From the NCBI RefSeq assembly GCF_026151205.1, contig NC_087081.1:10977113-11037112 (forward strand): 60,000 nucleotides of DNA, in the 5' to 3' direction. Origin of the DNA: Bolinopsis microptera. Its lineage: Eukaryota > Ctenophora > Tentaculata > Lobata > Bolinopsidae. Below the pieces are notes generated by a model that was not told the origin of the DNA, ran no database searches, and saw only the letters and a program-made list of their open reading frames with translations. Within the stretch, counting starts at the first letter, position 1. Each line of letters begins with the position of its first letter. Positions 462-38,645 of the stretch are shown piece by piece. The position numbers were made by a program, and so were the translations under genes.

Positions 462-581
462 ATCCCGCAATTATACTCATATGAAATACTTATCATTCGA
501 AGATTCATCCTTTGGGACTGAGACCACGCAAAATGAACTTAAATTACAGATTAGAGAATAAAAGTAATAATATCAACTAAC

Positions 582-920
582 TGGGTGTGATTGTAGCCAC
601 GACATCTTTGTACACTGTGACAGAAAATGCCATAGTATCAGTCATTACATCATTGTTCATTGCTCTGTTTTCGGCAGTAACCGTAAAAGTCCCATCATAG
701 GCCCAATTTACATCATTTGCTCCAATCGTTTTTGTGCACGTCAGTGTATTGGTCCCAGTGCACACGTTTGAATCACCTTTCCAGTCAAAAATGTTGATAC
801 TTTCACTGTCCAACTTCACCAAGTGTGGTGACCGACCACCATTAAGTTGAAAGTTATAAACCAATGAGGTTCCAAAATCAACTTTGATATTGTCTATCTG
901 ATCAATCTTCACGTTTCTGA
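582..920 (-). CDS. Ig gene exon 20: degenerate Ig domain without the canonical Cys pair
   Basis: Phase 1-1 exon of 339 bases. It aligns with the other domains (VRNVKIDQ, LNGGRSPH, WAYDGTFTVTAEN), but the B-strand Cys is Phe and the F-strand Cys is Val, while the extra pair (VCTGTNTLTC) is kept. Reading on gives a stop just past the donor (GTTAGT), so this could also be the last exon. A phase 1 donor at the right place makes continuation to the left more likely. Confidence 0.75.
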
Positions 921-3900
921 CTGAAAGATTTAATCATAATAAACTATTTTCTTCATGGGCTGACTTTTTTTCTCGCCGTATTGAAACATATTATACTTAA
1001 ATCATTAGAATCATAATGATGAACAGATTCGAGAATTTTGATTCAATATTCATATTAAAGTAAACAAACAAGAAAAATAAATCAAAGATCACAATTATAT
1101 ACATAAAATACTTTGTCAAATTTTCACGTTCATAAAACGATTATTATGGGGCACGGTACATCACCCAATAAAAAGTCTCGAAAAATAACAGAATTACGCA
1201 AAATCAAGCAAAGGATGACAAATGTCCCAAAAAGAAAAAATACATGCAAGCACCTAAACCGTCATCTTATTCTATATTTCAGCGGTACCAATTTAATAAT
1301 AGCAGTCTAGCAGTGTCAGTATGCAGATTAAAGTTCACTATCAGCTCTACAATATTTATTTGCATTTAAATAGACAATTTGAATTACAGATTTAACATAT
1401 CTTTCATAAGTGAATACTATGATTTCAACTTTTTTGAATACTATTATTTCAACTTTTTTTAAAATTTTTCAGAGCCAATCAAAATTTTCAGAGCCAATCA
1501 AAGTGTTCAGTTAGAAAATTTCATAGCTGGGTATGAATTCTTTTTCTTTGTGCCAAAAAGTAGAGGCAGAACAATCTTAATCATCAAATTATCGATTACC
1601 CAATCAAAAGGTATGCTGACAAACCCTGACAGGTCACAACACTGACAATAATCGTGGGTGATTTTAAACTAAACATGTATCAGAATAATCAGACAGACAC
1701 AGCTGTTGTTGACCGGGCTATCTCCTTACCAACGACAGCACTTTTAAAAAATTCGTCTTAATCTTAGGGGATTATTGACAAACAGCCGTTTTCATTAACA
1801 ACGAATGTTTTCAGTAACTTTGAGATATTAATAATCTTCAACGTTAATTCTTACTATTTACGATCATAAAAAATAACATTAATTTCCGGATCACACCACA
1901 CCAACCCACTATGATGTCCAGCTCATCTTCAGCGTCTTGTTCTGCCATCAAATCAGCTTTATTCTTGGATAAACACTTGTAGGTTCCAATATCATCATAA
2001 CCGGAGCTTGTAACACTGCTAACATACGTTAAGGTATTTCCACCAATATCCACTGTAACAGAGTCTGGAGTCTTTGATGCTGTGGTGTCATATAAAACAA
2101 GGTCTTTAGGCGTTGAACTGCCGAAAGGAGTCTGAATTAGCTCAAGATAGAATGGAATCCTGCCACCTTCTGCGACACAAGTTATTTTGAATTCGTTTCC
2201 ATAATAAACTTCGTCTAAATTCGATGTTATAGTATCTGTTAGCTGCAACTCCACGTTTTTAACAACAACTAACGACCCAGTCGCCAAACTACTCCTCTCA
2301 TTGGTTTCACCAGGGAGTTTATTAAAACCGGTGCAACTGTACTGCCCTGCAATCAATATAACCAGTAAGTTTCCACATAAAATTACAAGTGTATGATAAA
2401 CAAGATCTATTAATAAGTGGGATTGTATAAGATGACATACCTTCAATAAAAATTATTATTACAAACAGTGCTAAATTGATTCGCATCTAATCGAACAGCA
2501 AAGATAGTTCTTGAATGTTCAGTTATATCAAACCTTCGTTGGAATAGACTGGACTGGACATCTCATACTTGCAAACTAGATTAAATTCTCCAGTACACAT
2601 CAATGAATTTCCTGAACTGAAATTGTGTATTTTTGAAGGGTATTTCAGTCTTTTTAGTATACTCTGAAGCTCTGATATGAAAAACATTCCACTAGTGTAA
2701 ATTGGATGATTTTATTTCGGATTAGCGGAAGTTAAATCAATATTTTTTCCTTTACCTGCCTCGCTGCCAAGTCAAGTTGGTGCTACTGTCCGGAATATTG
2801 AGAGTTACTTTGTGAGGTTTATCGCCTCCTTCGACATTACATGTAATAGTGTATGCAGACCCATAGGTTATTTCTGTTTCACTGCAAAAAGGATCAGTCT
2901 ATCCAGTGCTACTTTAAAAACATCAGTTTTGTCTGGGTTACAGCAGATATTGGCGGCGTATGTCAGTATCTGTTTTGTAGCTTGATAGTTGACTAAAGAC
3001 TACACATCTAACTCGCACGAGTTAATTTTTAAACTAAACGACTAGTATCATGACAATGCAGTTCAATAAGTTCTAACCTTGCAGGAGTAAGGGACACAAC
3101 AACAGTCTTAGATACAAATATTTTAACAGATTTGGAATCTGTTCGCACTGCATTTCCCGCTACTTTGTTCAATCCAGTGCAAGTGTATGTACCTCCAGCG
3201 GAGTAATCTGAAGTTTTGCATCAGGTTTCATCATTTTAAAAAGGATTTGATTTACAGTTTAACGGTCCTTACCTTTATGATATATTTACCACTGATAACT
3301 GTTCTAAAGATCTATAAAATAGGACATTTCTTGCATACAAAAATGTCCTTATCTAGCAAGTAAGTGTTTCAACAGCGTTTAATGTACCGTTAACAGTGTG
3401 TGTATATGTGCATTTCTTGGAATAGTCTCCGTCATCAGTACAGGGGAACGCTCCAGTAGAGATTGCAGTACCTTCATGTACGAGAGTAACACTGTGGGGT
3501 TTTCTTCCTGTAAAGCATCAAGGAATAAGTAAAAAGCAATTAAATTCCATTTATAATCCTATGGTTTGAAACAACTGTTGAAAAAACTGTTGAAACAGAA
3601 TTTTTAGTTTCATGCACTCTTATAAATTACCTCCAGTTGCTGTACAGGTTATAGTAAATGCATCCCCAAAAGATGGTTTATCAGTACTGGCTGAGAGGGA
3701 GACAGTTACATCAGACACTACAGTCAGAGTTTTGGTGTCAATATCCGGTTGTGTGCCACCGTTGTCATTTTCTCCTTCACAAGAATAGTCGCCAGTGTTA
3801 AGCAATTCCAGAGGATTAAATGTGTTCTCGTACGAGATGTGGTAAGTTTCTTTGTCTACATCGGTGTCACTGCCACTGGGATAAGATTTTAAGACCTGAG

Positions 3901-6900
3901 TCCCCTTTTTGAAGATAAGTTTCGTTGGTAGAGGATTTCCTTCTACTTTGCATGTGAAAGTGACAGAGGATCCTTTTAGAAGTTCTGATTCGACTGGTGC
4001 CTGAGTTAATGTGGCGTCTGCATTTCCCACTGTAAAAGACGTAGTTTTAGTAATAACCATGAATCAAAGTTGAATCTATAACTAGGCAACATTATTTGTC
4101 GACAACCGGAGGAAATTGTATTTTACATGGTTTAAAATAAAACGGAAGTTAAGATATGAATCCTATCTCACAATTTGCTTACCTATTTTCAAGCTGACCG
4201 AATCAGAAGATAGTTTATTAACTGTATTGATAACGTTTTTCCCATTGCATGTATACAATCCAGAATCCGTGTATGATGCAGCGGAAAAGACTTTTTTGCA
4301 AGTTTTAGTAGTAGTTCCAGAGCAGGTCATCGCAATAGTTGAAGCTGAACTGTCGACTGTTTTTGTTAATACAGGTTCACTGGGTTCAGGGTCTCCTTTA
4401 ACAACGCAGGTTAGCGTGACTGAACTTCCTTTATTAGCAGGGTTATCGCTAGCTGTAAGTTCTGTTGTACTTTCTGAAATGAACAAGAGTGTGAGTCAAG
4501 TAGGTGAAGAATTAAGGGAATCAGGAGGTTACCGGGATTGGCAATTTTCAGCTATCCCGGTCCCGGTCCCGGTCCCGGTCAACCGGGTCAAGTCAAATTT
4601 TTCATCCCGGTCGCGGTCCCGGTCAAATGCTGATTTATGATCCCGGTCCCGGTTAATTCAGGATTCTTGGTCCCAGTCCCGGTCCCGGTCCCGGTCAATC
4701 ACTCAAATTTGCCGGGATTTTGACCGGGATCTTTTACATAATTTCATTCACTGTGATTTTAAGTTTTTACTTTCATTCATTGTGAATTTCATCTTTAAAC
4801 AACCTCTGAGCCAAATAAAACAATGTTTAAAATTGCTAAACAAGTTTACTAGTTTAGGTAACTAATATCGTTACATAACTCATAAGTGCAAACTAACATC
4901 AAGTTTTCAACTCGGGCTACGCCCAATTGTCAATTGGAATTGGAGAATGAAACTGTTGAATAATTTGAGGGATCATTGATCGAGGAATGAGGAATGAGGG
5001 TGAACTTGAGTAATCAGTACATGAACATTATTGGTGTAGTACATTAGGCCCATGCCCCATATTGACGGTTTTTTTTTTTCAATTATAATGTAAATGAAAG
5101 TTGCAGCTTTCAATATGAGAATACCAGTTTTGGTCCCGGTCATCCCGGTCAAATCCCGGTCATCCCGGTCAAATCCCGGTCATCCCGGTCAAATCCCGGT
5201 CATCCCGGTCATCCCGGTAAAATTGGATTGTTGGTCCCGGTCCCGGTCCCGGTCCCGGTAAGATAGAAATCCCAGAAATTATTGGTCCCGGTCCCGGTCC
5301 CGGTCACGGTAAATTGATAATCTCAGTCCCGGTCCCGGTCCCGGTCCCGGTCAAGTCACATTTTGTATCCCGGTCCCGGTCCCGGTCAGGCCTAAAATCA
5401 TGTCCCGGTCACCTCCCTTAGGGAATTTAATATTTTCTCAATCTACAACAAAAGTTGTTGCTTTAAATGATCTTATTTAATTTGGAAAACATAGTTGCTC
5501 CTACTAAAGTAGCTACAAACAGAATAATTATTACCGTATGATAAGGTAACGTCGTCAAAAGCTGAGTTCACTATAGCTGATGCACTATCAGTAGTGATTT
5601 TATACCATTTAGTTCCGACAGTGCATTTGTAATCTCCTGCATATTCCAACTTAAAGTTATTTACATTAACCACATAGTTTATCTTATCATTAGAACTGCA
5701 TGTAACATCCCCACTAGAGCTTGAAGTCAAACAATCAAAACTCAGAAAGTTTGGTCCACTGATAGTTACAGATTCTATAGGATATCCACCCACAGTACAT
5801 GTAATTGTAGCTGTAGTATCGCCTTGTACAGTAACAGTTGTTGGAGTGATTGCTGCAGTAGGTCGGGCTGCAATGATTTTATTTTGGGTTTGAAATTTGG
5901 CATCAACACGTTAAATAATATTATCAATATATCAGAACTTGTCTTCTTTAATGATAACCGATTTGATTTCAACCGAAATCAAATCAGCAAAAAAACAATT
6001 ATCCTTAAAACACGTTTAATGATATTATTAGTCAGCATCAAATATCAATATGATTATTCTTTAAAAACTTTATAATAGTACAATACATAGATTGTACCGA
6101 TGTTAGCATCACTAACTATAACATACGACTTATCATCATAATATATCAGAACTGGCATTCTAAAGTTACTTTCTATCGTGAAACTTACCAGCAATGACAA
6201 CGTTTGTCGTCTTCTGATACCACAACACTTTGTTTGGAGTATTAGACATCCCACATTCATACACTCCACTTTTATCAGATGTAATACTTGGGCCGAAATC
6301 ATATACTTCAGTGGCTGATTTACCAGTCAATTGATCGGGCATTTTATACACTGTACTAAAAAACACAGTGTTTCCAGAACTTAGCGACCCCTCACATCCT
6401 ATTTCGAACTTAGTGTGAGACTTCGTGTTATCAGAGGTGTCATACCACATGTAGTCAGGAGGAGACTTTGAGAATTTGAATAGGAGCATAGGGTTAATCT
6501 TAGCAACTGAAAATTAATTAGAAATTAACAATGTCATACTCATACCAGTTCATGATCTTATAATAGTCTTTCCACTTTAAAAATTCAAATCGAAACAGAC
6601 CACATTATTATATAGACCCCACATTCAGCTATTTTAGAAATTTGATGAAAGGTGGCTGGTGGATACATTTGATTTATCACTAATTAACAACTTTTACTTA
6701 CGATAGCTAATTAATTTGACATCCTCCGACGAGACATCAGAATTACACTCTGAATCAAGAATCTCACACGTAAAAGTAGCTGTGCCAACAGAGTCGATTG
6801 TAACAATATGTTCCCTTGTGTCTGCTATAAGGTTTTTTATGCTGTCTTTCCACTGGTATTGAGCATCGTAGCTACCACCGGACGTCCTACATGCAGCTCC

Positions 6901-9900
6901 ACACATCAGTAACACCTTGTCACCAACATTGGGGTTAGATTTGAGCTTCCCAGTATCATCTACAGAAAGCACCATGTATCCAGTTATTATATCTAGTGGC
7001 TTGACCGAATAATCCCTCTCTGAAAGAATATTGACAATAATTTAACAAATCATTTTAATTTATAACCTTCACTAAGGTCTAATATTGTCAGTGTTCATTG
7101 GATGTTCTGGACTAATTGAATTATACAAATTTAACAACTCACTAAACTCTGATTGTATTTTAAGTTTTATTAATTACAATCCTAGGACCCTACATAGACT
7201 GTGGAAATTGAGTTATAGATTGGTTCCATGTAGCACTTCACCTACCTATAGAAACTTTAAGGACTGTTGACCCCAAGAGAACTTCTTGTTTGTTGACTCT
7301 AGACACTGCCTTACATGAATATTTCCCTTTATCACTTGTTCGTACACTAACAATTATCAGATCATAACGATCAACTGTGCTCAGTCTCATTTCATAATCC
7401 CCAGCAATTTCAAATTCATAACTGTCAAAATGAGTGGGGTTGTAGTAAGTCCACATATTATCATGGTTATCCTCCACTCTACCCGATTCTCCTTCTTTAA
7501 ACCACTGTACATCGTAAGGTTCTCCATTAACTATAGACGTATCAAAATCATCTTCGTTTGGATTACATTGTAACCTGAATAAATAAACCCCTTCTTCAAG
7601 TTCATCATCTGATGTTGTTACCACCTGGTCTAAGTAGCTCTTTCCAGTACTATCGTATTCAATATTGTCTGATAGAAAAGAAATGATAAGTTACAAATTA
7701 AAGTTGTACCCTTACAGGAGTTTCGATATAACTCAGCATTTTTACAAAATACTGATTACATACGATAATGAATCATCAAATTTATTGCCTCATTCTCAAT
7801 TTTAAACCAACTAGCAATGTTCCTAATTTACTTATAATTATATTAATGTGGTAATTTGAACTATTTCAAAAAGAATGCAGACTGAGCACTCTCCCATTTA
7901 TTTACCTGGCAAGGTATATTTGACTGTTGCAACATCACTGAGAATAATATCGTCTCCATAAGTAGCTTTACACTGGAACAAATTATCCTCTCCACTCTCA
8001 TCAACATCAGCTGCGTCTACTTCATACTCTGTTCCTGTAGCTCCACTAATCAGGTCTGTGTTACCAGGAGGTGTGTTGAAAGCTGTACCTAGCTTGTACC
8101 AGGAGTATGTTATGCCAGTTCTTCCAATAGCTACACAGGACAGAGTAACAGATCCACCAGAATTAACAGTTTGTGACACAGGTTGTGATGTGAACTTGAA
8201 TATATCAGGTCCTGATAATAGAAACATATTACTATTGACTATTGAGAAATGAGACATTGGGTATAATTTGGGATTAACATTCAATGCAGGTATCAAATTT
8301 GACAAAACAATATAAAGACTATTTTAATTAACCGCATTTTTATCTGATGATAAGAATGGAATTTAATATTTTCTCAATCTACAACAAAAATTGTTGCTTT
8401 AAATGATATTATTTAATTTGAAAAACATAGTTGCTCCTACTAGGCTACTAAAGTAGCTACAAACAGAATAACTGTTACCGTATGATAAGGTAACGTCGTC
8501 AAAAGCTGAGTTCACTATAGCTGATGCACTAGCAGTAGTGCTTTTATACCACTTTGTTTCGACAGCGCATTTGTAATCCCCTGCATCTTCCAGTTTGAAG
8601 TTATTTACATTAACCACATAGTTTATCTTATCATTAGAACTGCATGTAACATCCCCACTAGAGCTTGAAGTCAAACAATCAAAACTCAGAGAGTTCGGTC
8701 CACTGATAGTCACAGATTCTATAGGATATCCACTCACAGTACATGTAATTGTAGCTGCAGTATCACTTTGTACACTAACAGTTGTTGGAGTGATCGCAGC
8801 AGTAGGTCGAGCTGCAATGATTTTATTTTGGGTTTGAAGTTTGGCATTATCACGTTAAATAATATTATCAACATATTATATCAGAACTGGTCTTCTTAAA
8901 TAATAACTGTTTTGATTTCTACCAGAGTTCTTACCAGCAATAACAACGTTTGTCGTCTTCTGATACCACAACACTCTGTTTGGATCATTAAACATTCCAC
9001 ATTGATACACTCCACTTTTATCAGATGTAATACTTGAGCCGAAATCATATACTTCCGTGGCTGAAGAACTAGTAACCAGTTTCGGCATTTTATACACTGC
9101 ATTATACAACTTTTCCGATCCAAGTGACCCTTCACATCCTATTTCGAATGAAGGGTGCGATTTTGTACTATCAAAGGTATCATACCACATGTACTCAGGA
9201 GGAGACTTTGACAATGTGAGCTGGAGCATTGGGTTAATCTCAGCAGCTGGAAAATAATTAGAAATTAACAATGTCATACTTATACCAGTTCATGACCTTA
9301 TAATAGTCTTTCCACTTTTGAAATTAAAAATCGAAACAGACCTCATAATTAGTTGGAGATTAAATATTTATTAAATGTGATGAAAAGTGAATACATTTGA
9401 TTCATTAGTAATTAACTACTTTTACTTACCATTGCTATTAAACGTGACATCCTCCGACGAGACATCAGAATTACACTCCGAATCAAGAATCTCACACATG
9501 AAAGTAGCTGTGCCATCAGAGTCGACTGTAACAATGTGTTCCCTTGTATTTGCTATAACTTTGTTTATGCTGTCTTTCCACTGGTATTGAGCATCGTAGC
9601 TACCACCGGAGGTTCTGCATGCAACTCCACACATCAGTAACACCTTATCACCAACATTGGGGTTAGATTTGAGCTTCCCAGTATCATCTACAGAAAGCAC
9701 CATGTATCCAGTAATTATATCAAGTGGCTTTACCGAAAAATCCCTCTCTGAAAGAATATAAACTGTAATTTTACAAACCATTTTAATTTATACCCTTCAC
9801 TAAGGTCTAGTATTGTCAATATTCATTAGACGTTCTGAACTAATTGGATTATAAACATTTCGTTACACACTTAACTCCAATTATATATTATGTTTTATCA

Positions 9901-11632
9901 ATTGCAATCCTAGAGTATAGAATTATAGATTGGTTCCATGTAGCACTTCACCTACCTATAGGAACTTTAAGGACTGTTGACCCCAAGAGAACTTCTTGTT
10001 TGTTGACTCTAGACACTGCCTTACACAAATATGTCCCTTTATCACTTGTTCGTACACTAACAATTACCAGATCATAACGATCAACTGTACTCAGTCTGGC
10101 TTCATAATCCCCAGCAAATTCGACTTTATAATCACTAAACGTAGTTGGATTGTAGTAAGTCCACATATTATCATGGTTTTCCTCCACTCTACCAGATTCT
10201 CCTTCTTTAAACCACTGTACATCGTAAGGTTCTCCATTTGTTATAGAGTTATCAAAATCGTCTTCGTTTGGATTACATTGTAACCTGAATAAATAAACCC
10301 CTTCTTCACCTTCATCATCTGGTGTTGTTACCACCTGGTCTATGTAGCTCTTTCCAGTACTATCGTATTCGATATTGTCTGATAGAAAAGAAATAATAAG
10401 TAATAAGTTGAAGTTGTACCCTTACAGGTATTTCGATATAACTCAGCATTTTTACAAAACACTGATCTCATTTAAAAAAATTAAACCAACTGACTTTGTT
10501 CTCAATTTACTTCAAAAGATATTTGATATAATATATTAATGAGTTAATTTGAACTATTTCAATAAGAATGAAGACTAAGCGCTTTCCCATTTACTTACCT
10601 GTCAAGGTATATTTGACTGTTGCAACATCACTGAGAATAATATCGTCTCCATAAGTAGCTTTACACTGGAACAAATTATCCTCTCCACTCTCATCAACAT
10701 CAGCTGCGTTTACTACATACTCTGTTCCTGTAGCTCCACTAATCTGGTTAGTATCTGGAGGGGTCCTGAAATCTGTACCTAGCTTGTACCAGGAGTATGT
10801 TATACCAGTTCTACCAGTAGCTACACAGGACAGAGTAACAGTTCCACCAGGATTAACAGGTTGTGACACAGGTTGTGATGTGAACTTGAATATATCAGGT
10901 CCTGAAAACAACGCTTCCTTTAACAGAATAAACCAGTAAGTCTCCGCTTAGAATTCAAAGTTTAATGACATGGTATGCATGGCTGTTTAAATTTTGCCTA
11001 ATATTGAGTTAAATTTCCATTTCCTTTTTAGGGAAGGCAATGATAAAAGGAGATGCACAGTAAAAAATATAAATATTTACATCAGTTTGGCTATGAATCC
11101 TGTTTTAGGGAAAAGGAAATTAATTCAGTAAATATTTTCGACTATATTTATTTTTACCAATTGAAAAGTTTTTATTTGAAACACAGCAGGTACTTACCAC
11201 ACATGCAACAGCTGAACAGCAGTATTAGCAATAATCTGAAAATTAACAATTATAGTATCGTACTGAGGAGATAAGCAGTTTTAAGCAGTTCTAACATTAA
11301 AAACTGTATATAATAAACGATAAGGGAAAGTTCGAATAAATTTAGGAGAATCAGTTTAAGAAATGGTGGTATGGACATTGTCAGAGTTTTAAGATATTTA
11401 ATTATCGGAAGATACTGGAAGATGTTATCCTACTCTTCGGTCATTATAAAGATTGAAAATCAGAATTAGGAATCAAAAATTATTATTTTCGCAATGCACA
11501 ATTGATATTTTCCTCAGCAAACAAAAATGGTGTTTTATTGTGTCATTAATTCTGGTTCCAAAAATTAAAAACCAAGCTTGCAATAAGCAATCATCGATCA
11601 CAGAAACTTACTTACTTCGATACAAATATCAT
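582..11632 (-). CDS. Giant multi-Ig-domain secreted/membrane protein, 20 exons visible, 3' end missing
   Basis: Spliced gene assembled by hand on the minus strand. Exons, from the start: 11616-11632, 11198-11235, 10599-10901, 9956-10378, 9430-9747, 8935-9246, 8479-8811, 7906-8211, 7246-7668, 6702-7019, 6189-6506, 5535-5867, 4183-4473, 3631-4029, 3388-3507, 3078-3207, 2756-2881, 2534-2616, 1906-2346, 582-920. Every junction has GT/AG borders and compatible phase, giving about 1,790 codons. The N-terminus is a short hydrophobic signal peptide (MIFVSKLLLILLFSCCMC). At least 16 Ig-like domains follow, most with a B-strand Cys and a DxGxYxC F-strand motif. Exons 3-7 and 8-12 are a tandem duplication. 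No TM or cytoplasmic part is seen because the last visible exon ends in phase 1 with a donor. Known for the superfamily: adhesion, recognition or immune binding. The specific ligand is unknown; a role in self/non-self recognition is only an inference. Confidence 0.85.
921..1905. other. Ig gene intron, nothing else recognised
   Basis: Intron of 985 bases between exons 19 and 20. It is AT-rich with a short local duplication near 1420-1510 (TTTCAACTTTTTT and CAGAGCCAATCAAA repeated). No exon-like segment with matching phase was found. Confidence 0.6.
1906..2346 (-). CDS. Ig gene exon 19: end of one Ig domain plus a full Ig domain
   Basis: Phase 1-1 exon of 441 bases. It starts with the F strand GQYSCTGFNK of the previous domain, then carries FKITCVAEGG to DDIGTYKCLSKN. 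The donor GTTGGT was preferred over GTGGGT four bases downstream because only it keeps phase with exon 20. Confidence 0.82.
2534..2616 (-). CDS. Ig gene exon 18: short exon with the extra Cys pair
   Basis: An 83-base exon (phase 2 to phase 1) encoding SLMCTGEFNLVCKYEM, the same C-x7-C motif as in exons 13 and 20. It is bounded by ACAATTTCAG and GTTTGATA. Without it exons 17 and 19 do not join in frame; with it they do. Confidence 0.72.
2756..2881 (-). CDS. Ig gene exon 17: B-strand part of an Ig domain
   Basis: Phase 2-2 exon of 126 bases encoding YTITCNVEGGDKPHKVTL and a C-strand Trp (LTWQRG). Borders are TTTTTGCAG and GTAAAGG. It lies outside any long continuous reading frame and was found by splice-phase matching. 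Confidence 0.78.
3078..3207 (-). CDS. Ig gene exon 16: end of one Ig domain, start of the next
   Basis: Phase 1 to phase 2 exon of 130 bases. It supplies the F strand (AGGTYTCTGLNK) of the domain begun in exons 14-15 and the A strand (KTVVVSLTPA) of the following one. The donor is AAG/GTTAGA. Confidence 0.8.
3388..3507 (-). CDS. Ig gene exon 15: middle of an Ig domain
   Basis: Phase 1-1 exon of 120 bases with the extra Cys pair (FPCTDDGDYSKKCTYTH). The donor after AACG (GTACAT) is weaker than its neighbours. It was chosen because it restores frame with exon 16 and gives a normal Ig spacing; reading on past it reaches a stop. Confidence 0.7.
3631..4029 (-). CDS. Ig gene exon 14: one Ig domain plus the start of the next
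   Basis: Phase 1-1 exon of 399 bases. It holds a complete Ig domain (SSVTFTCKVEGNPLP to NTGDYSCEGEND) and then the first half of another (DAFTITCTATGG). That second domain is finished by exons 15 and 16, so domain borders and exon borders stop coinciding here. Confidence 0.86.
4183..4473 (-). CDS. Ig gene exon 13: Ig domain
   Basis: Phase 1-1 exon of 291 bases encoding one Ig domain: SSVTLTCVVKGDPEP (B strand), an extra Cys pair (MTCSGTTTKTCKK) and TDSGLYTCNGKN (F strand). It is not part of the duplicated module. It belongs to the four-Cys subtype seen in the membrane-proximal half. Confidence 0.88.
4516..5422. repeat. CCCGGT hexamer satellite in an Ig gene intron
   Basis: Two blocks of TCCCGG hexamers (about 4530-4730 and 5131-5418), with variants such as CATCCCGGTCAAATCCCGG, flank about 400 bases of unique AT-rich DNA. 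The outer ends are roughly inverted (AGGAGGTTACCGGGA and TCCCGGTCACCTCCCTT) and both are flanked by AGGGAA, as if the whole block were a mobile element. Confidence 0.8.
5535..5867 (-). CDS. Ig gene exon 12: Ig domain H, copy 2
   Basis: Phase 1-1 exon of 333 bases; second copy of exon 7. It has ATITCTVGGYP, the extra Cys pair and YAGDYKCTV. The intron after it (4474-5534) holds the CCCGGT satellite that abuts the duplication breakpoint. Confidence 0.88.
6189..6506 (-). CDS. Ig gene exon 11: Ig-like domain I, copy 2
   Basis: Phase 1-1 exon of 318 bases; second copy of exon 6. It has FEIGCEGSL and DKSGVYECGM. Joined to exon 12 it reads VVIAARPTAAI without a break. Confidence 0.86.
6702..7019 (-). 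CDS. Ig gene exon 10: Ig-like domain J, copy 2
   Basis: Phase 1-1 exon of 318 bases; second copy of exon 5. It has VLLMCGAACR, YQWKDS and ATFTCEILDSEC. The donor is GTAAGT. Confidence 0.86.
7246..7668 (-). CDS. Ig gene exon 9: Ig domain K, copy 2
   Basis: Phase 1-1 exon of 423 bases; second copy of exon 4 and the same length. It has FRLQCNPNED, DVQWFKEGE and SDKGKYSCKAVSR. About 16 differences in 128 residues are visible against exon 4, many within one ten-residue loop. Confidence 0.88.
7906..8211 (-). CDS. Ig gene exon 8: Ig domain L, copy 2
   Basis: Phase 1-1 exon of 306 bases; second copy of exon 3. The framework is the same (VTLSCVA, SWYKLG, NLFQCKA). It is one codon longer than exon 3, with the change in the loop after WYKLG. 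Confidence 0.88.
8479..8811 (-). CDS. Ig gene exon 7: Ig domain H, copy 1
   Basis: Phase 1-1 exon of 333 bases. It has ATITCTVSGYP (B strand), an additional Cys pair (SFDCLTSS and DVTCSS) and DAGDYKCAV (F strand). I count seven differences in 87 aligned residues from the duplicate at 5535-5867. It joins in frame to exon 8, restarting the module. Confidence 0.88.
8935..9246 (-). CDS. Ig gene exon 6: Ig-like domain I, copy 1
   Basis: Phase 1-1 exon of 312 bases. It has FEIGCEGSL (B strand) and DKSGVYQCGM (F strand). Compared with the duplicate at 6189-6506 it is two codons shorter, and the differences cluster right after the B-strand Cys, in the stretch before VYKMP. Confidence 0.86.
9430..9747 (-). 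CDS. Ig gene exon 5: Ig-like domain J, copy 1
   Basis: Phase 1-1 exon of 318 bases. It encodes an Ig-like domain with VLLMCGVACR (B strand and an extra Cys), YQWKDS (C strand) and ATFMCEILDSEC (F strand plus another Cys), suggesting two disulphides. The duplicate is at 6702-7019. Confidence 0.86.
9956..10378 (-). CDS. Ig gene exon 4: Ig domain K, copy 1
   Basis: Phase 1-1 exon of 423 bases (141 codons), the largest of the repeated module. It has FRLQCNPNED (B strand), DVQWFKEGE (C strand), a long C'-E region, and TSDKGTYLCKAVSR (F strand). The duplicate is 7246-7668. Differences between the copies bunch in the loop around WTYYNPT. Confidence 0.88.
10599..10901 (-). CDS. Ig gene exon 3: Ig domain L, copy 1
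   Basis: Symmetric phase 1-1 exon of 303 bases encoding one Ig domain: VTLSCVA (B strand), SWYKLG (C strand) and DNLFQCKA (F strand). It opens with GPDIFKFTSQPV, as does its duplicate at 7906-8211. The splice donor is GTAAGTAA. The two copies are almost the same through the framework strands. Confidence 0.88.
11198..11235 (-). CDS. Ig gene exon 2 (signal-peptide core)
   Basis: A 38-base exon between TTTTCAG and GTAAGTACC. It begins with one base (phase 2) and ends with one (phase 1). It encodes the hydrophobic run LLLILLFSCCMC and joins in frame to exon 3, giving a signal peptide directly before the first Ig domain. Confidence 0.75.
11616..11632 (-). CDS. Ig gene exon 1 (start codon, signal peptide start)
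   Basis: Seventeen coding bases, ATG then four codons plus two bases (MIFVS and a split Lys), followed by a strong donor GTAAGTAAG. The phase 2 end fits exon 2 exactly and the joined peptide is a plausible signal sequence. The start is inferred. A different 5' exon cannot be excluded, because short exons of this kind are hard to prove without RNA data. Confidence 0.65.
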
Positions 11633-13074
11633 GGTGACCTATCAGGTGAGAATATTGCACATTATTCAACCTCAATCGAACACTGCCACAAGAATTAACA
11701 TAAATGTCCTAATGGAAAGTTTCATGATAATGTTATGAATAACAATTAATCAATGACAGTCAGTAAATTATAAGACTAATAATTTTGAGCATTTTAGTAA
11801 TAAAAAGATTATAAGATATTCACGAGGTGAGACTAGCACAAGGAATTATCCTCACGTGATATGGATGAGATAAGAGGAAATAATATACTGATATATGATC
11901 TCAAGGGGGAAATAATAGGAGGCAATCTAAAATAATTTAAGTAGTAAGGTAGTAGTATACACAATACATCATATAATTCACAGTTCATTAAATGTTCTGA
12001 ACTTAGTCTGAGATATTCTGATTCTGTCCTGGTTTTAGTTGGTTCAAACAGCACCAGTAAATCACTGGGTAGAGAGATAAAAAACAAAAATACATACACT
12101 TTTTAATTCGACTGATGTAGTTGTCATCAAAACATGGACCTTAAATTCCATCATTATCCATCTCAGTGGTAAAAATTATGTTTAACAGTGTAACCTTTCT
12201 TTGCCTTTTCAGTGTCCGTTCCAGGCAAAAGTGCTTGAGGATAAACTATGGAGATTGAGGTAAAGATCTGTTAAATGAATGAAAACAGGATGTTTTGATC
12301 ACATGATTGGCAGGCGTTTGTTGTGCAGTAGTGTTGGAAAAGAATAAAATTATCTTGTTAATAGAATATTATTGATTATATTTTATGACGATGAATTATG
12401 AATTTCGATTAATTTACATTTATTTGTAGGTATTATTGAATTACGGTTCAGCTGGTTGCCTCAACACTGTAGTATGACTGAATGGTCGAGCCGTGATTAT
12501 TAAAAAGAAAAGAAATATGACCTATAATTTATAACCTGATAACCATCAACTGAATAATCGTTTAAATTAATAAGTATTAAAACACAAACCATCATGTGCC
12601 GTTTAGCAGTAGGGTGCGGCTCACTAGGACCACTGGGCCAATTGGCAAAAAGGAGTTCGGAAAAGCCATTATTGGCACTCGAGTCCTTGATCTTGTCGAT
12701 GGTGCACTGGGCCTTTTGAGCTGCCATCCTTCAGCTTCTGACGATTGAAATTATTGTTAATCGAAGTTGAGGCAATCAACCAACGCGCAGCTTTTATGGT
12801 TATCTATGATAATGTTTAATCTGTAATAAAGATCAAAATTCAAATTTGTATTCCTTACTAATCAAGGACATAATCTTATGACATATTTCAAACGACAGGA
12901 ACACAGTTTATACTCACATCATTTCTAGGGAAGCCAGAATATTAGTAGGCAGGGTTCATTTCCTGTTTCTCTTCAAATCTGCAAATTGGAAATCATAGGA
13001 TCAATACAATAATATTGTGCATTAAATCAAGACTAACAATCAAATGCTTACAAGCATTTAGTGAACAGTTAATT
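11633..13074. other. Upstream of the Ig gene; no firm gene
   Basis: This should hold the Ig gene promoter. AT-rich, no clear core promoter. A spliced-looking plus-strand segment at 12214-12260 (TTTTCAG to GTAAAG) encodes CPFQAKVLEDKLWRL and may be an exon of an unknown gene, but no partner exon was found. Confidence 0.4.
12598..12727 (-). CDS. Possible first exon of an unknown gene
   Basis: An ATG in a good context (AGGATGGC) opens a minus-strand frame with polar, protein-like composition (MAAQKAQCTIDKIKDSS, then NWPSGPSEPHPTAKRHM) up to a possible donor ATG/GTTTGTG. It is less repeat-like than its surroundings. I do not recognise the family and no following exon could be matched. It could be a single-exon remnant. 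Confidence 0.3.
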
Positions 13075-13493
13075 AACTGCTGATCTAGAAAAACTCCCCA
13101 GTCTATCAATAAAAGGATGCAGCTACAGTAAATCAGTGATGAAACATTACAGTGAACAGCTTTGGCAATCGTCCATAAACAGCCAGTACCAGCTGGAAGG
13201 GTATACAGAGGCACCTACAGTGAGCGCCACAAAGCTCAAGTTTCCGCCCAAAACATCAAGGCAACTTGAAACCTTGTTTCTAAGCTTGTTCTATCCGAAC
13301 AACATAATGAATGAATTTCTACACCGCTTCAAAAGCAGTAAATTTGATTCTCCACTGTGTGATTGTAGGCGAGGGGCTCAAAATTCACTTCACCTGCTTA
13401 CCGACTGTCCTGATGTACAAGCAGATAAAAGGAACAAAATGAGTGAGCTTCTTGAAAGACACCCTTTCCACAACATCAAAAACCAAGGCTATG
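13075..13493 (+). pseudogene. LINE-type retroelement ORF, C-terminal part (first half)
   Basis: Open frame of about 140 codons ending in the Cys-His pattern typical of the extreme C-terminus of many non-LTR retrotransposon proteins (LCDCRRGAQNSLHLLTDC). It is preceded by a Trp-containing helix-like stretch (YSEQLWQSSINSQYQ). No reverse transcriptase motifs remain upstream. The frame runs into a poly-G tract at 13493 where satellite DNA is inserted. Its continuation is at 16650-16765. Confidence 0.6.
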
Positions 13494-13759
13494 GGGGGGG
13501 TGTCATGTCCGTCTATGTCCGCCTATGTCCTGTCCTTTTTGGATTCTATGAGACAACGGACGTGTTTTTTGGGACACGGACGGACATTGGCGGACTCGGA
13601 CGGACATTGGCGGACTCGGACGGACATTGGCGGACATTGGCGGACTCGGACGGACATTGGCGGACCCGGACGGACATTGGCGGACTTGGATGGACATTGG
13701 ACATTGGTGGACATTAGCGGACATTGGTGGACATTAGCGGACAAACATTTTGAGGACTG

Positions 13760-16115
13760 AAGAGTACTGAAGAGTACTGAAGAGTACTGAGGAGGATGGC
13801 TGAGAAGGATGGCTGAGGAGGATGGCTTAGGAGGATGACTGAGGAGGATGACTGAGGAGGATGACTGAGAGGGAGGAGAAGGATCAGGAAGACCCAGGAG
13901 GAGGACCTAGGAGGAGGAGGAGGAGAACTGAGGAGGATGACTGAGGAGGAGGAGGAATCAGGAGGAGGACTGAGAAGGAGGAGGACTGAGGAGGATGGCT
14001 GAGCAGGATGGCTGAGGAGGATGACTGAAAGGAAGGAGGAGGAGGAAGAGGAGGAAGAGGACTGAGGAGGAGGAGGAGAAGGACTGAGGAGGAGAAGGAG
14101 GACCCAGGAGGAGGAGGACTCAGGAGGAGGAGAACCCAGGAGGAGGACCCAGGAAAAGGCCCCAGGAGGAGGAGGAGGACTGGGGAGGTGGAGAACTGTT
14201 GAGGACTGATGAGGAGGACTGAGGACGAGGAGGAGGAGGACTGAGGAGGGGAGGAGGAAGAGGACTGGGGAGGATCAGGAAGACCCAGGAGGACCCAGGA
14301 GGAGGAGGAGGAGGAGGACCCAGGAGGAGGAGGAGGACTGAGGAGGACTGAGGAGGAGGACTGACGATGACTGAGAAGGAGGAGGACTGAGGAGTACTGA
14401 GGAGGATGGCTGAGGAGGATGACTGAGGAGGATGACTGAGAGGGAGGAGGAGGAGGACTCAGGAGGAGGACTCAGAAGGAAGAGGAGGAGGACTCAGGAG
14501 GAGGACTTAGGAGAAATGAGAAGGAGGACTGAGGAGAACTGAGGAGGAGGAAGAGGAGGAGGACTGAATAGGAGGAGGAGAAGGAGGGGGACTGGGAGAG
14601 GACTGGGGAGGAGGAGGACTGATGAGAAGGATGAGGAGGAGGACCCAGGAGGAGGAGGACTGAGGACCGAGGAGGAAGAGGAGGAGGATGAAGAGGATGA
14701 AGAGGAGGAGGAGGACCCAGGAGGAGGAGGACTGAGGAGGAGGACTGAGGAGGACTGAGGAGGACTGAGGAGGATGGCTGAGGAGGATGACTGAGAGGGA
14801 AGAGGAGGAGGAGGATGAGGAGGACTGAGGAGGACTGAGAAGGAGGAGGAGGAGGAGGAGGACTGAATAGGAGGAGGATGAGGGGGACTGGGGGAGGACT
14901 GAGGAGGAGGATGGAGGACTGAGGAGAATTAGAAGGATGAGGAGGAGGACTGAGGACTAAGGAGGAAGAGGAGGAGGATGAAGAGGAGGAGGAGGACCCA
15001 GGAGGAGGACCCAAGAGGAGGACTCAGGAGGAGGAGGAGGACTGGGGAGGAGGACTGTTGAGGACTTATGGACATTGGTGGACATTAGCGGACATTGGTG
15101 GACATTAGCCGACAAACATTTTGAGGACTGAAGAGTACTGAAGAGTACTGAAGAGTACTGGGGAGGATGGCTGAGAAGGACGGCTGAGGAGGATGGCTGA
15201 GGAGGATGACTGAGGAGGATGACTGAGAGGGAGGAGAAGGATCAGGAAGACCCAGGAGGAGGAGGAGGAGGAGGAGGACCCAGAAGGAGGACCTAGGAGG
15301 AGGAGGAGGAGAATTGAGGAGGATGACTGAGGAGGAGGAGGACTCAGGAGGAGGACTGAGAAGGAGGAGGACTGAGGAGGATGGCTGAGGAGGATGGCTG
15401 AGGAGGATGGCTGAGGAGGATGACTGAGAGGGAGGAGGAGGAGGAAGAGGAGGAAGAGGACTGAAGAGGAGGAGGAGAAGAACTGAGGAGGAGAAGGAGG
15501 ACCCAGGAGGAGGAGGACCAATGAGGAGGAGGACCCAGGAGGAGGAACCAGGAAAAGGCCCCAGGAGGAGGAGGACTGGGGAGGAGGAGAACTGTTGAGG
15601 ACTGATGAGGAGGACTGAGGACGAGGAGGAAGAGTAGGAGGAGGACTGAGGAGGGGAGGAGGAAGAGGACTGGGTAGGATCAGGAAGACCCAGGAGGACC
15701 CAGGAGGAGGAGGAGGAGGACCCAGGAGGAGGAGGAGGACTGAGGAGGACTGAGGAGGAGGACTGACGATGACTGAGAAGTAGGAGGACTGAGGAGTACT
15801 GAGGAGGATGGCTGAGGAGGATGGCTGGGGAGGATGGCTGAGGAGGATGACTGAGGGGGATGACTGAGAGGGAGGAGGAGGAGGACTCAGGAGGAGGACT
15901 CAGAAGGAAGAGGAGGAGGACTCAGGGGGAGGACTCAGGAGGAGGACTTAGGAGAAATGAGAAGGAGGACTGAGGAGAACGGAGGAGGAGGAGGAGGAGG
16001 AGGACTGAATAGGAGGAGGAGAAGGAGGGGGACTGGGAGAGGACTGGGGAGGAGGAAGACTGATGAGAAGGATGAGGAGGAGGACCCAGGAAGAGTAGGA
16101 GGAGGAAGCATCTAA
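13760..16115. repeat. Polypurine satellite (GAGGAGGACTGAGGA), two higher-order copies
   Basis: Almost pure A/G on the plus strand, built of GAGGAGGA, GACTGAGGA, GGATGGCTGAGGA and GACCCAGGA blocks. The start motif ACAAACATTTTGAGGACTG appears at 13741 and again at 15112, and the block order repeats, giving a second-order unit of 1371 bases. Long frames here are only low-complexity Ser/Pro runs and are not genes. Confidence 0.92.
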
Positions 16116-16240
16116 ATGTTATTTCCATTTTTGTCCGTTTTTGTCCATTTTTGTCCGTTTTGAAAATATAGGGTACCGAACGGACAAAAAACATGATCCC
16201 TTATAACAGCAAAAATTGAACATTTTATTTAGCAATTTAG

Positions 16241-16649
16241 GTGTCCATTAATGTCCGCCTATGTCCGCCTATGTCCGCCTATGTCCGTCTATGTCCTCCT
16301 ATGTCCGCCTATGTCCGTCTATGTCCGCCTATGTCCGCCTATGTCCGCCTATGTCCGCCTATGTCCGCCTATGTCCTGTCCTTATTGGATTCTATGAGAC
16401 AAGCGGACATAGACGGACGTGACACCCCCCCCCCCCCCCCGCTATGGTGGGAACTCAATGTTGATATCATGGAGCAGACTTCGTGAGTTCTTTGATCTAT
16501 GTCCTCCTATGTCCGCCTATGTCCGTCTATGTCCGCCTATGTCCGCCTATGTCCGCCTATGTCCGCCTATGTCCGCCTATGTCCTGTCCTTATTGGATTC
16601 TATGAGACAAGCGGACATAGACGGACGTGACACCCCCCCCCCCCCCCCC
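16241..16649. repeat. TGTCCGCCTA minisatellite, two arrays with a duplicated host flank
   Basis: Array 1 (16241-16440) and array 2 (16496-16649) have the same unique core (ATTGGATTCTATGAGACAAG) and poly-C end. Between them 16441-16497 is a copy of the host sequence at 16650-16706, shifted by 209 bases, so one array plus flank was duplicated in tandem. Confidence 0.85.
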
Positions 16650-16765
16650 GCTATGGTGGGAACTCAATGTTGATATCATGGAGCAGACTTCGTGAGTTCT
16701 TTGATCTAGCACTGGAAATAACAAAGGATGCAGAAGAATTCCTTCGAATAGAGATAAAACTTTAA
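16650..16765 (+). pseudogene. LINE-type retroelement ORF, last codons (second half)
   Basis: After the satellite block the frame interrupted at 13493 resumes as GYGGNSMLISWSRLREFFDL and ends at TAA 16763-16765. The junction GGCTATGG is shared by both flanks, so this continues the 13075-13493 frame. The partial copy at 16441-16497 repeats the first 57 bases. Confidence 0.6.
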
Positions 16766-17287
16766 ACAGTTGATTATATTCCAACTACCATAACTACACC
16801 ATCCCTATGATTAGTGAGCCGGGTTCAATGTTAGACCGGACGAAGCATATATTTCATGAGCCGGGGTCAATGTTAGACCGGACGAAAATATGGCTACATC
16901 TCAACAGTGGATAACACAGCAGAGGCTCTATTACAGTTAAATTCTGTTACTTGAACTCAACTTAACAGTTCTAATATTATAGCATATACTATAATATTAT
17001 GAAAATATTTTGTGTCAAATGAGGCTGTTTAATCATTCTTACACACCAAAGGTTGTTGTGTGTTTTTAATTAATTTATTATTGTTAAAAAGTTTATATTG
17101 AGAATTTTATACAGTAGTCTATAGACCAATTAAATTATTTACCGGTCACATATATATGCGGTTTTAACAATTATATAATGACATTGAACGAACTTATTTA
17201 AAGGATTGCTAGTATTTTATGTATTTGTTTTCACTTCTGCACGTTTAGGCAGTTGCTCTTGTGACCAGAGTTTTAGAGTTATATATA
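16766..17287. other. No gene; short direct repeat
   Basis: AT-rich. Two near-identical units of about 45 bases around 16815-16890 contain GAGCCGGG and TCAATGTTAGACCGGACGAA. Nothing else recognised. Confidence 0.5.
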
Positions 17288-18053
17288 CAGGGTGGGCCAA
17301 AAGTCAGTGTGCAAACGTTGGGTCTTATACCTCCGCCGTGATTTATATTTGAGAGCTGTTGCTTTACAGATGGCATACTGTACTTACTGGTTCGAGGATT
17401 CCGTCGTCAAAATTTTAAAATTCGAATATTTTAGACCACGCCCATTCAATATTAAAACACCTATATTGTTTTCTCTGAACATGCTGAACGCCTAATTTTT
17501 TCAGAGACGGTAGATTATCAAATGTTGCATATGATCTGAAAACATGAGGCAAACGGATTAGAAATGACGAAGTTATCAAGCATTTTGTGTATCTCGTTAA
17601 CAAAATTGACTGGGTGATTGTGTGACACCGTGACACGACACCTTAATTGGGCACCCTTAACAATTCCCATAATGTTTAACGGGGTAGTTAACGGGGTCAC
17701 CTAATCACGTGATTAGGTAATCCAATCACCTGATCACACGTAATGAATAAACTCGTTATGTTTTATATCTCGGTCATCTGAGAAGCTACACTTCTAATTC
17801 TTTCAGGACAAACGTAATTCGAATGGCCAAACACAATTCAATAACATTTAGCTTGATCCGACTATCCAAACTATCAAATAAATGTGAAAATGAACATCCA
17901 TTTGAAAAAAATAAACGCGAATATTTTTCGAGTTGACAAATTCCTCGAACCAGTGGTGGTACTAAGTCATACCAGAAGGAAGTATTTCAATTGGGCACTC
18001 AGTGACTGAGCTATTAAGGCCAACGTTTGCACACTGACTTTTGGCCCACCCTG
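17288..18053. mobile_element. Mariner-type MITE with long terminal inverted repeats
   Basis: The ends are inverted repeats of at least 34 bases starting CAGGGTGGGCCAAAAGTCAG and are flanked by TA dinucleotides in a TATATA context. The start of the repeat and the TA target fit the IS630-Tc1-mariner group. The 766-base interior has no transposase frame, so it is non-autonomous. Confidence 0.85.
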
Positions 18054-18078
18054 TATATATATAATTAACTGTGGGACC

Positions 18079-19350
18079 ATCAAGAATCATGTTTTAGGAA
18101 TATTCATTGACCTAAGCAAAGCTTTTGACACCATCGATCATTCAACACTCTTTATAAAATTAGAGGGATGTGGAGTGAGAGGAGTTGCAAATAACCTCAT
18201 AAAAAGCTACTTGACAAACAGGCAACAATACACCGAAGTTGTAGGAGGAAAATCAGATACCCTATCTATTCAATTTGGTGTCCCGCAGGGTTCAATTCTT
18301 GGACCTCTCCTATTTCTTCTTTATATGAACGACATCACAAACAGTTCTAAACTAGGATCATTTGTTACCTTTGCTGATGATACCAATATATTTGTTGTCG
18401 GCAAAACAAAACGTGAGGCATATGAACGAGGAAATGAGCTTCTGTCATCATTACAGTCTTATATGAGAGCGAATAAGTTACATATAAACATGTCCAAGTG
18501 CTGCTACATACACTTCAAACCCACCATGGCAGGTTCTAAATCAGAGATTTTATCACACCCTGAAGTTGTACTAACTATAGACAACTTTCCAATCAAAAAG
18601 GTTTCATCCGCAAAATTTCTGGGTGTTATAATTGACGAGAACCTATCATGGGAAGATCACATCAAAGCTCTTAAGCGAACCCTAAATCATTCCACATCCA
18701 CTTTATGTAGACTCCGCTGCTCCCTCCGCTGCTCCCTTCCAGAATTTCTACACCAACAATTATATTATACCCTGTTCGAATCACATCTTTCCTACTGTAT
18801 ATCTGTATGGGGTGGGGCAGCGAAGCAACGTATAAGCTCATTATTTACTGCTCAGAAGTACTGTCTCAGAGTACTATTTGGTGATAGACTGGCGTACCTT
18901 GATAAGTTTAAGACTTGTGCACGTACTAGGCCTATAGGACACCAGAAACTAGACCAAAAATTCTTCATAAAAGAGCACACCAAACCGATATTCAAGCATA
19001 ATAACATTCTAGCTATACAAAATCTATATACATACCACAGTTACCTGGAGCTCTACAAGATAATGAAATTCCGTGCTCCAATATCCTTACATGAGGGTTA
19101 CACATGTTCATCAAGGAAACCCTGCCTTCTAATCTGTCAGGCAGACCCACCTGACAATCACAACACTAGATCAACCAAAATTTTTAACATTTTAACCCCA
19201 AAGTTCAGAATGACTGATTTTACTACTAGTGTAATGTGCTTGCGAGGAAAGCTAAAACGTGCGCTACTAGCTAATCAACATAACCACGCCCTGCTTGATT
19301 GGACCGTAAAAGACTTTGACTGCACAAATATTATTTTCCAAACATTATAA
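18079..19350 (+). pseudogene. Non-LTR retrotransposon reverse transcriptase, 5'-truncated
   Basis: Intact frame of about 423 codons holding the catalytic half of a LINE reverse transcriptase. Visible motifs: IDLSKAFDTIDH (motif A with the first Asp), PQGSILGPLLFLLYMNDI (motif B), FADDTNIF (the catalytic AspAsp), LHINMSKC, and the thumb motif KFLGVIIDENLSWEDH. The order and the FADD box fit CR1/Jockey-like elements. The endonuclease and N-terminus are absent; the frame starts just inside the border of the MITE. No stop or frameshift is seen, so the insertion looks fairly young or it is a spliced remnant of a recent copy. Confidence 0.85.
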
Positions 19351-37100: not shown

Positions 37101-38645
37101 TCATAATTCACAGTTAAAGGCAACTTTTGGTACCAAATTTATCAAAATCAGAGACAAAAAATTCTATGCCAACTCATGGCGCTTATTCATAGACTAAAAG
37201 CGAAACTGAAATTGATGAAAATTTAAAAGAATCGACTGTAGAGTGATTTAGCGCGACTGTTGAAGCTACGACTTGTAACATCACTGATTGCCAATCAATA
37301 GTGAATGTGAAGCTAGCTATAAGTATCAACTTAATAACACCAGAATGTGTGTGTGTCTGTGTGTGTGTAATTTCCGAACAGTTATACAAAAAAAACGGTA
37401 ATAGTTACGGGACTGGTTTTTTCGGTATAGTGCTGACAAAACTCTGACGAAGCCTATAAGCGAATTTTATAAAAATCGGCCGGTGGTAAGTGGTTTAATT
37501 GATTATTTTGTTCCAGAAATGTGACATAAATGGATGGGAGAGAGAACGAGGAGGATAACATGTACCGTAATTAGTTTAGCCCCACGTAATGCTATAAGCT
37601 TAGAGCTCACTCTTGCGGCCGCTTTGTTTCAACTGTAGGGAGATTTCATAATTTCATAAGACAGCGTTATGCATGATATCAATATATAATGCGGTTGTAT
37701 ACTTTTACATTGCAACTGTGACAGTTAAGTCCCGGCCGAAGGCACGGGTTACACTAGTATTATACTGGGCGGCGCTCAGCCTGTCATTCCGCCTAATCTC
37801 TATTCTATGATTATGAACATAAATATAATAGCATGGGGTCCCCAGGTAAGTGATACTCGTAAAATATTTGTTCCAAATATTATATTATTAGACCGTCGAT
37901 TGCTCTAACCAGAGCCTTCTCTGGGGGGGGGGGGGGGGGGGGCAATGATAATCCTTTATCCGGAAATAAAACGCGTTTTGTCCTTTAAAAACAAATAAGA
38001 TAATTCGCCATAACAACTATCATCCAACCTCAAATCTCGAGGATTCTTTATTCATCAATTATCAATCATCAAGATCTGTTAAGAACTTGGAATAAGTATC
38101 TCCTTCAATTTCACTTCACAACTTACTCTCAATCAATTTCACTTCTCAACAATCTGCAAGAGCAGAAAATGGAATTTCACGTTTTTAAGTTTGTTGTTTT
38201 AAAAACAACGATAGGGTTTTAGGAAATATTCACGGCTTGCTACAATGAAAAACTATTTAACATATTATTAGTCATAGTGTTAATTTACATGCTGAAGACT
38301 GCGCCCCAATTGTATAAGGAAACAGTACACGCGCAAATTTAGTCCTATCTTAGAAACATAAAAATAACTAAAAATAAATTCAGTAAAAATTTATCAAATC
38401 AATGGATTAGTCACATGAAGACTAGAAAATACCGTTGCCCAAAAATAAAAATATAGGAACCGACCAAAAATTCTATCAAATAACAAATAAATTCTTAAAA
38501 AGTCACATAACTGCGACAAGAAGTTCAACACATGAAAATCGTCAGCGATGGGTGCACTCTGCTGGATTGGAGAACAAAAACCAACTAATTGACCAATTAC
38601 ACTAATTAATCAATGAAACAATTAACTAATCAGCCAATTAGTCGA
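37101..38645. other. 3' flank of importin alpha; no gene
   Basis: Contains a poly-G tract (37923-37942), a GGCGCTCAGCCTGTCATTCC repeat copy (37770) and the repeat seen at 19781. No coding exon recognised. The polyadenylation site of importin alpha should lie to the right part. Confidence 0.45.

Follow-up and report, generated by a model that had tools for sequence, protein, structure and literature searches.

Polymorphic and modular immunoglobulin receptors

Polymorphic recognition loci built on immunoglobulin (Ig) receptors are already known from Hydractinia, where the linked genes Alr1 and Alr2 encode single-pass receptors of the Ig superfamily (IgSF) with strongly divergent ectodomains. 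In the vertebrate KIR and LILR families of paired receptors, domain number varies by unequal exchange, and similar ectodomains are carried by long-tailed and short-tailed neighbours. Dscam, titin and other long Ig-exon genes contain strings of phase 1-1 Ig exons, which can be duplicated without a frameshift. For the Ctenophora, argued to be the sister group of all other animals (PMC10232365, in excerpt), no polymorphic Ig-receptor recognition locus turned up among the papers listed on ctenophore allorecognition, Ig domains, the Ig superfamily and fusion or self-recognition, or on allorecognition in Mnemiopsis; a survey of ctenophore immunity names TIR, NACHT, SRCR and C-type lectin domains in the portion available (PMC11797021).

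The locus of Bolinopsis microptera described here resembles Alr1 and Alr2 in its linked IgSF receptors with strongly divergent ectodomains. It comprises two genes, whereas at least 41 Alr-like loci are reported from the Hydractinia complex, and its ectodomain is far longer. A second Alr1 allele lies on its own scaffold in Hydractinia, where it was probably kept because its strong divergence hid its allelic status (PMC11067881, in excerpt), and contig C21 seems to play the same part here. As in the KIR and LILR pairs, similar ectodomains are found on a long-tailed (A-type) and a short-tailed (B-type) neighbour. The strings of phase 1-1 Ig exons recall Dscam and titin, but the gene models contain no mutually exclusive exon array of the Dscam kind, in which the exon order reads as a simple series, and the difference in length lies between putative haplotypes and neighbouring genes.

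A repeated five-exon module in gene 1

The window, meaning the whole stretch of 60,000 nt that was analysed, corresponds to C10:10977113-11037112; negative coordinates run left of it, and the position on contig C10 equals 10977112 plus the coordinate. The assembly searched comprises 264.65 Mb in 232 contigs. For one half of a glutamate-receptor ligand-binding domain encoded in it, the four best PDB sequences are three variants of ML032222a, from Mnemiopsis, and a kainate-like receptor (4zdm) from the ctenophore Pleurobrachia; searched back, the ML032222a fragment reaches 81% identity at most, which makes Mnemiopsis itself an improbable source. As the original prediction had claimed, exons L-K-J-I-H are present twice, head to tail, in one minus-strand gene (gene 1), and all ten are open, of phase 1-1, bounded by AG and GT sites and a multiple of three in length. 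The anticipated in-frame gain of about 560 residues amounts to 566 codons (1698 nt) in the second module, added without a frameshift, next to 563 codons (1689 nt) in the first; the premise that symmetric 1-1 exons permit such expansion is thus borne out.

10599-10901, minus strand: first module, exon L (Ig); Pfam Ig cut-off passed, open, splice sites
9956-10378, minus strand: first module, exon K (V/I-set Ig); Pfam Ig cut-off passed, open, splice sites
9430-9747, minus strand: first module, exon J; predicted to be all-strand, nothing above a Pfam cut-off
8935-9246, minus strand: first module, exon I (Ig-like); sub-threshold Ig matches only
8479-8811, minus strand: first module, exon H (Ig); Pfam Ig cut-off passed
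7906-8211, minus strand: second module, exon L; open, splice sites
7246-7668, minus strand: second module, exon K; open, splice sites
6702-7019, minus strand: second module, exon J; open, splice sites
6189-6506, minus strand: second module, exon I; open, splice sites
5535-5867, minus strand: second module, exon H; open, splice sites

Judged by their direct repeats, the two copies extend over about 5422-8218 and 8358-10908, in blocks that are 84-96% identical. Between the first and the second module the coding sequence is 90.7% identical (dN 0.077, dS 0.180), and the exons are 90.9% identical as against 85.7% for the introns, a difference in which coding constraint is visible and which excludes chance. 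Both exon H donors of gene 1 score weakly (1.2) in the relaxed DP exon model. The description of the module as five Ig domains holds in part: exons L, K and H are Ig by Pfam score, whereas J and I stay below every Pfam Ig cut-off. The predicted fold of exon J is all-strand (pLDDT 76), with PKD-like domains leading its PDB matches at E 0.005 and no match at E 0.001 or below, and exon I has sub-threshold Ig matches and a predicted fold of low confidence (pLDDT 40).

An inverted-repeat scan of 5300-11000 returned two weak pairs, and an Rfam search of the window gave no match. Elsewhere in the window, an open frame of 446 codons at 18010-19350 reads by eye like the reverse transcriptase of a non-LTR element. 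Long simple repeats, with arrays of the GGACATTGGC type and GGA-rich tracts, occupy 13550-16100, and similar tracts seem to recur to the left of gene 1 (about -8800 to -6800). Elsewhere in the genome, at C12:11.78-11.81 Mb and other sites, the glutamate-receptor ligand-binding family has 32 matches, ten of them in uninterrupted open frames of at least 900 codons.

Gene 1 as a putative type I membrane receptor

Outside the modules, gene 1 was assembled from the following features, together with an insertion that separates the second module from the body of the gene.

11616-11632, minus strand: gene 1 exon 1, start codon and A-type signal peptide (MIFVSK...); read by eye, same exon in C21 gene A
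11198-11235, minus strand: gene 1 exon 2, remainder of the signal peptide (...LLLILLFSCCMCG); read by eye, donor position from exon models
4522-5422, no strand: CCCGGT-rich insertion, about 900 nt long and bounded by short terminal inverted repeats (GGAGGTTACCGGGA / GGAGGTGACCGGGA); empty site visible in gene 2
4183-4473, minus strand: Ig exon of the gene 1 body, following the modules; Pfam Ig cut-off passed, in both exon models
3631-4029, minus strand: gene 1 body Ig exon; Pfam Ig cut-off passed, in both exon models
3388-3507, 3078-3207, 2756-2881, 2534-2616, 1897-2346 and 582-920 (span 582-3507), minus strand: further gene 1 body exons; provisional model, Ig-like by eye
C10:10974069-10974509, left of the window, minus strand: gene 1 last exon, transmembrane helix and tail

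The label of a receptor-like gene proved apt, in that a signal peptide, an Ig ectodomain, a transmembrane helix and a long cytoplasmic tail were all found. The signal peptide runs from 11632 (MIFVSK) into 11235-11198, yielding MIFVSKLLLILLFSCCMCG, and is typical by eye; it and the single transmembrane helix were both read by eye. The provisional model places 24 exons (6168 nt) between the signal peptide and the tail, for a protein of about 2,200 residues. Its first 12 exons are identical in the strict and relaxed DP runs and its middle is approximate; some exons are absent from the strict run and present in the relaxed one, and the exon scorer was trained on exons from the same genes, so that agreement with them is partly built in. 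The Pfam Ig cut-off is passed by five of the ten ectodomain exon proteins scanned (L, K, H, 4183-4473 and 3631-4029), and no Pfam cut-off by the other five, namely J, I and three further body exons, two scanned exons within 582-3507 being among those without a match. As three scanned body exons lack a Pfam match, the figure of about nine additional Ig-like units comes from inspection by eye. On this provisional model, gene 1 would encode a large type I membrane receptor with a signal peptide, two five-domain modules, about nine Ig-like units, one transmembrane helix and a tail. It is without about 1.9 kb (some four model exons) that is present in gene 2. The insertion at 4522-5422 may be flanked by an AGGGAAT target duplication.

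A neighbouring gene with a single module

The search for paralogues nearby revealed a neighbouring gene, gene 2, about 10 kb past the left edge of the window, which matches window positions 577-8218 at 88.5-92.2% in blocks. It has one module of five exons, all open, with an uncertain exon H donor, placed at -12976 in the exon and divergence tables and at -13006 by the relaxed DP model. Its signal peptide is distinct (MNNF...FVLCLLIIRSKCG, by eye), and its transmembrane exon differs from that of gene 1 and is followed by a tail of about 20 residues, again by eye. By signal peptide and tail, gene 1 and gene A of contig C21 are grouped as A-type and gene 2 and C21 gene B as B-type; long-tailed and short-tailed neighbours thus have similar ectodomains, with an A tail of 112 aa and a B tail of about 20 aa. 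The bodies of C21 A and B are 97.6-99.8% identical in three blocks. A genome search with exon L gave at least seven matches; five of them are close copies, each with its place among the modules described here, and one more distant match lies on C1. A large clustered family with pseudogenes was not found in searches with exon L, exon K and the body, which point to two genes per haplotype, with no further close copies among the matches listed.

A B-type relic and the probable origin of the second module

Evidence on how gene 1 came to have two modules is concentrated in the intron that joins them.

8212-8478, minus strand: fusion intron between the modules, 267 nt
8333-8356, minus strand: relic of the 3' end of B-type signal-peptide exon 2, about 24 nt, now intronic; by alignment to gene 2
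8356-8358, no strand: junction, with B-gene DNA on the left and the intron following exon H on the right

The stretch 8100-8356, from the second exon L into 145 nt of its upstream intron, matches gene 2 at 91% and ends at 8356; from 8358 on, the match is to the intron that follows exon H. The B-type match stops inside signal-peptide exon 2 of gene 2, whose final 24 or so bases survive in gene 1 without the acceptor. The upstream intron of the first module itself has no match to this B-type stretch, the A gene 5' intron matching only to 8218. An upstream intron that begins in a truncated B-type signal-peptide exon indicates that the second module came from a B-type gene, and it was probably copied from the neighbouring gene 2.

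Comparison of the three C10 modules shows the same affinity overall. Among 2471 aligned sites, those shared pairwise only number 161 for the second module and gene 2, 87 for the first module and gene 2, and 91 for the first and second modules. In the introns, the second module is 91.1% identical to gene 2, against 84.9% and 85.7% for the other two pairs, and dS is 0.105 for the second module and gene 2 and 0.165 for the first module and gene 2. Two segments are contrary, the first module being nearer to gene 2 in exon H (18 sites against 4) and in the intron after J (13 against 7), while exon K clearly favours neither pairing (17 against 15). The two classes of sites cluster only mildly non-randomly (173 of 5000 shuffles are as extreme). 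With exon H and the intron after J against the general pattern and K undecided, a later exchange or a mosaic origin of the module sequences is likely.

These observations bear on the simplest account, a tandem duplication by unequal crossing-over between introns in which the neighbouring gene took no part. It would explain the head-to-tail arrangement of the modules and their coding identity of 90.7%, and exon H and the intron after J indeed do not group the second module with gene 2; it is nevertheless considered very improbable, for the match of 8100-8356 to the B gene runs into the signal-peptide exon of the latter, past the point at which the A gene 5' intron ceases to match. The original prediction of a tandem duplication within one gene is therefore upheld as regards two copies in one gene and amended as regards a purely internal origin, which was rejected on account of the truncated B-type signal-peptide exon in the 5' intron.

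Copying from gene 2 must also accommodate the A-type tail in which gene 1 ends, and for this a single simple crossover is insufficient; we infer either copying of B into A or two exchanges. A break in the intron after exon H of the A gene may have been repaired with the B gene, or crossed over into it, where a few bases happened to match; ordinary homology further downstream would then have resolved the exchange, so that the A-type tail was retained.

Contig C21 as the putative second haplotype

Contig C21 (81,740 nt, no N) carries a single module in each of its two genes, B and A. Its positions 6-1456 match C10 at -23936 to -22492 (91.1%) and 1453-1863 match -21726 to -21311 (90.2%); at the other end, 74775-77249 match 37943-40647 in blocks of 98.1, 93.4, 95.1 and 87.2%, with weaker blocks (84.7 and 81.3%) to 40940. 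Flank blocks are thus 81-98% identical overall, and the 5' flank of gene 1 is 86-90% identical to that of C21 A. The block 38502-39563 (1.06 kb) has two matches in the assembly, which are C10 and C21. Matches shorter than 60 nt and those starting in GGA-microsatellite stretches (13000-17000 in part; -9100 to -6700) were left out of the comparison, and the 96.4% block at -22498 to -21721 was not counted towards the flanks, since window 17286-18061 contains related DNA (98.1%). From about 13 to 38 kb of the window, C10 and C21 give only scattered alignments, some of them inverted. In this part C21 has a large palindrome (C21:62595-68713), which matches its own reverse complement at 98.8% and is either a real inverted repeat or an assembly artefact. 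Given the scattered alignment and the palindrome, the haplotype reading rests on the two ends, the gene order and the 5' flank of gene 1, which make a second haplotype of the locus the best interpretation of C21. That C21 is an unrelated paralogous cluster was rejected, the flanks being collinear at both ends and one flank block having only two genome matches.

The intron after H in C21 gene A is 156 nt long, which leaves no room for a second module. The earlier suggestion of a variable module number agrees with the two haplotypes within the assembly, which differ in having two modules in gene 1 and one in each C21 gene, and module number seems to be polymorphic within the sequenced animal.

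A false duplication, in which the assembler joined pieces of haplotypes or genes and no chromosome has two modules in a row, must be weighed at this point. The published B. microptera genome was built from PacBio reads with gap closing and haplotig purging, according to the part of its description available (PMC10232365), and C21 looks like an unpurged haplotig, both of which favour such an error. Iso-Seq reads are mentioned in the same genome paper. The two modules were, however, rejected as the two alleles of one module, since coding identity is 63.6% between the first and C21 A and 63.3% between the second and C21 B. Furthermore, all module exons are open and have splice sites, no N occurs in 100 kb of C10 around the locus, and there are no leftover gene ends, the five close exon L copies all having their place. 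An assembly error of this kind is accordingly given little credence.

Uneven divergence between the putative haplotypes

Divergence was computed for seven of the ten module pairs, three of which lie between haplotypes. In these three, the coding sequence is 63-64% identical (54-55% aa), with dS of about 1.05-1.15; exon L retains 78-81% aa identity, and K, J, I and H 43-61%, where dS ranges from 0.97 up to saturation. Between haplotypes, aa identity is 88.4% in the A tail (dS 0.17), and the B transmembrane exon shares 31 of 32 residues (97%). Within haplotypes, identity is 98.2% between the modules of C21 A and B and 90.7-92.9% among the C10 copies. A genome search with C21 exon K listed five matches, which are the five module copies, and there is no closer relative among the matches listed. 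A polymorphic ectodomain with a more conserved remainder, as in Alr-type genes, is therefore seen in two haplotypes and three between-haplotype pairs. Positive selection is not indicated, dN/dS being below 1 for most pairs; small excesses of dN occur in C21 A versus B overall (0.019 versus 0.017) and in single exons.

An ordinary adhesion or neural IgSF gene, with the C10-C21 divergence reflecting an old or introgressed haplotype devoid of a recognition role, would be compatible with dN/dS mostly below 1 and with the PDB matches of exons L and K taken together, which are general I-set proteins (9ncf, 'Immunoglobulin-like domain protein', first, then contactin-5, titin and Robo). This explanation seems unlikely, although it deserves more weight than an assembly error, in that divergence is concentrated in the ectodomain (exons K to H) as against the A tail, the B transmembrane exon and the flanks, whereas introgression of a block should have left more even divergence. 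Ectodomain lineages that are old or fast, a conserved signalling end and exchange between neighbours together give the locus the appearance of a recognition receptor. With moderate confidence, it is interpreted as a two-gene Ig receptor locus, one gene with a long tyrosine-rich tail and the other with a short one, that would serve variable surface recognition and in which a module was captured from the B-type neighbour.

The cytoplasmic tail and its relatives

The A tail of gene 1 has 112 residues and seven tyrosines, four of them within YxN motifs, YxN being the consensus for Grb2-type SH2 domains. Shuffled tails contain 0.69 such motifs on average and reach four in 18 of 10000 cases (42 of 10000 for C21 A). 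The tails of gene 1 and C21 A each have four YxN motifs and no strict ITIM, ITSM or YxxL/I and, in a departure from the KIR and LILR pairs, they are thus without an ITAM half-site as well and have only YxN.

A genome search with the A tail listed 18 matches, including itself and C21, and the two best others lie on C7. At C7:17741968 and C7:6587535, a closely related A-type transmembrane helix and tail core (HNY[DE]NVVL, H[VL]YNDVV, YDY[AV]RxED) are found downstream of exons that encode DSL and EGF-like domains, not Ig. The C7 tails are shorter, with two YxN each, a number that shuffles reach often (1606 and 952 of 10000); each has one Yxx[LI], and one of them has one ITIM-pattern match. The same tail core beside DSL/EGF-type exons suggests one signalling tail common to several receptor classes. 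Two distant matches were also recorded, an Ig-like exon at C10:11.69 Mb and a tail-like stretch with stops at C5:2.92 Mb.

The tail is informative with respect to a gamete-recognition receptor, acting in egg-sperm compatibility instead of immune or somatic recognition. Gamete-recognition genes combine fast ectodomain change with change in repeat number, and the haplotype pattern fits both readings equally. A long tail with tyrosine motifs, related to tails beside other ectodomain types, suggests instead a signalling receptor used in several contexts, and a role in gametes is regarded as improbable. Under the reading preferred here, that of variable surface recognition, the ectodomain would bind variable ligands, self/non-self or microbial, the receptor would signal through phosphotyrosine adaptors, and exchange between A and B, together with gain or loss of phase-1 Ig exons, could generate structural alleles.

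Implications for recognition in ctenophores

A role in recognition, of self/non-self or of pathogens, is plausible and constitutes the best functional guess, within which allorecognition may be one option among several. Mnemiopsis is reportedly ready to fuse, which weakens allorecognition in particular. Pieces from several Mnemiopsis animals have been grafted and kept for 2-10 days (Coonfield, cited in PMC10309991, in excerpt), and grafts that hold for days count against strict allorecognition in a relative. The wider proposal of a hyperpolymorphic ctenophore locus is doubtful, though possible: two linked Ig receptors, one signalling and one short-tailed, with ectodomain alleles that are extremely old or fast (synonymous sites close to or past saturation, in contrast to flanks and tails) would trade whole modules and so produce domain-number alleles. 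Such a system, comparable to Alr or the MHC, would have arisen independently or else very early.

In the relic signal exon, the transfer of whole Ig modules from one receptor to its neighbour has left a clear molecular trace. If the locus is polymorphic in populations, it would provide a concrete, testable gene pair for self/non-self or pathogen recognition in ctenophores.
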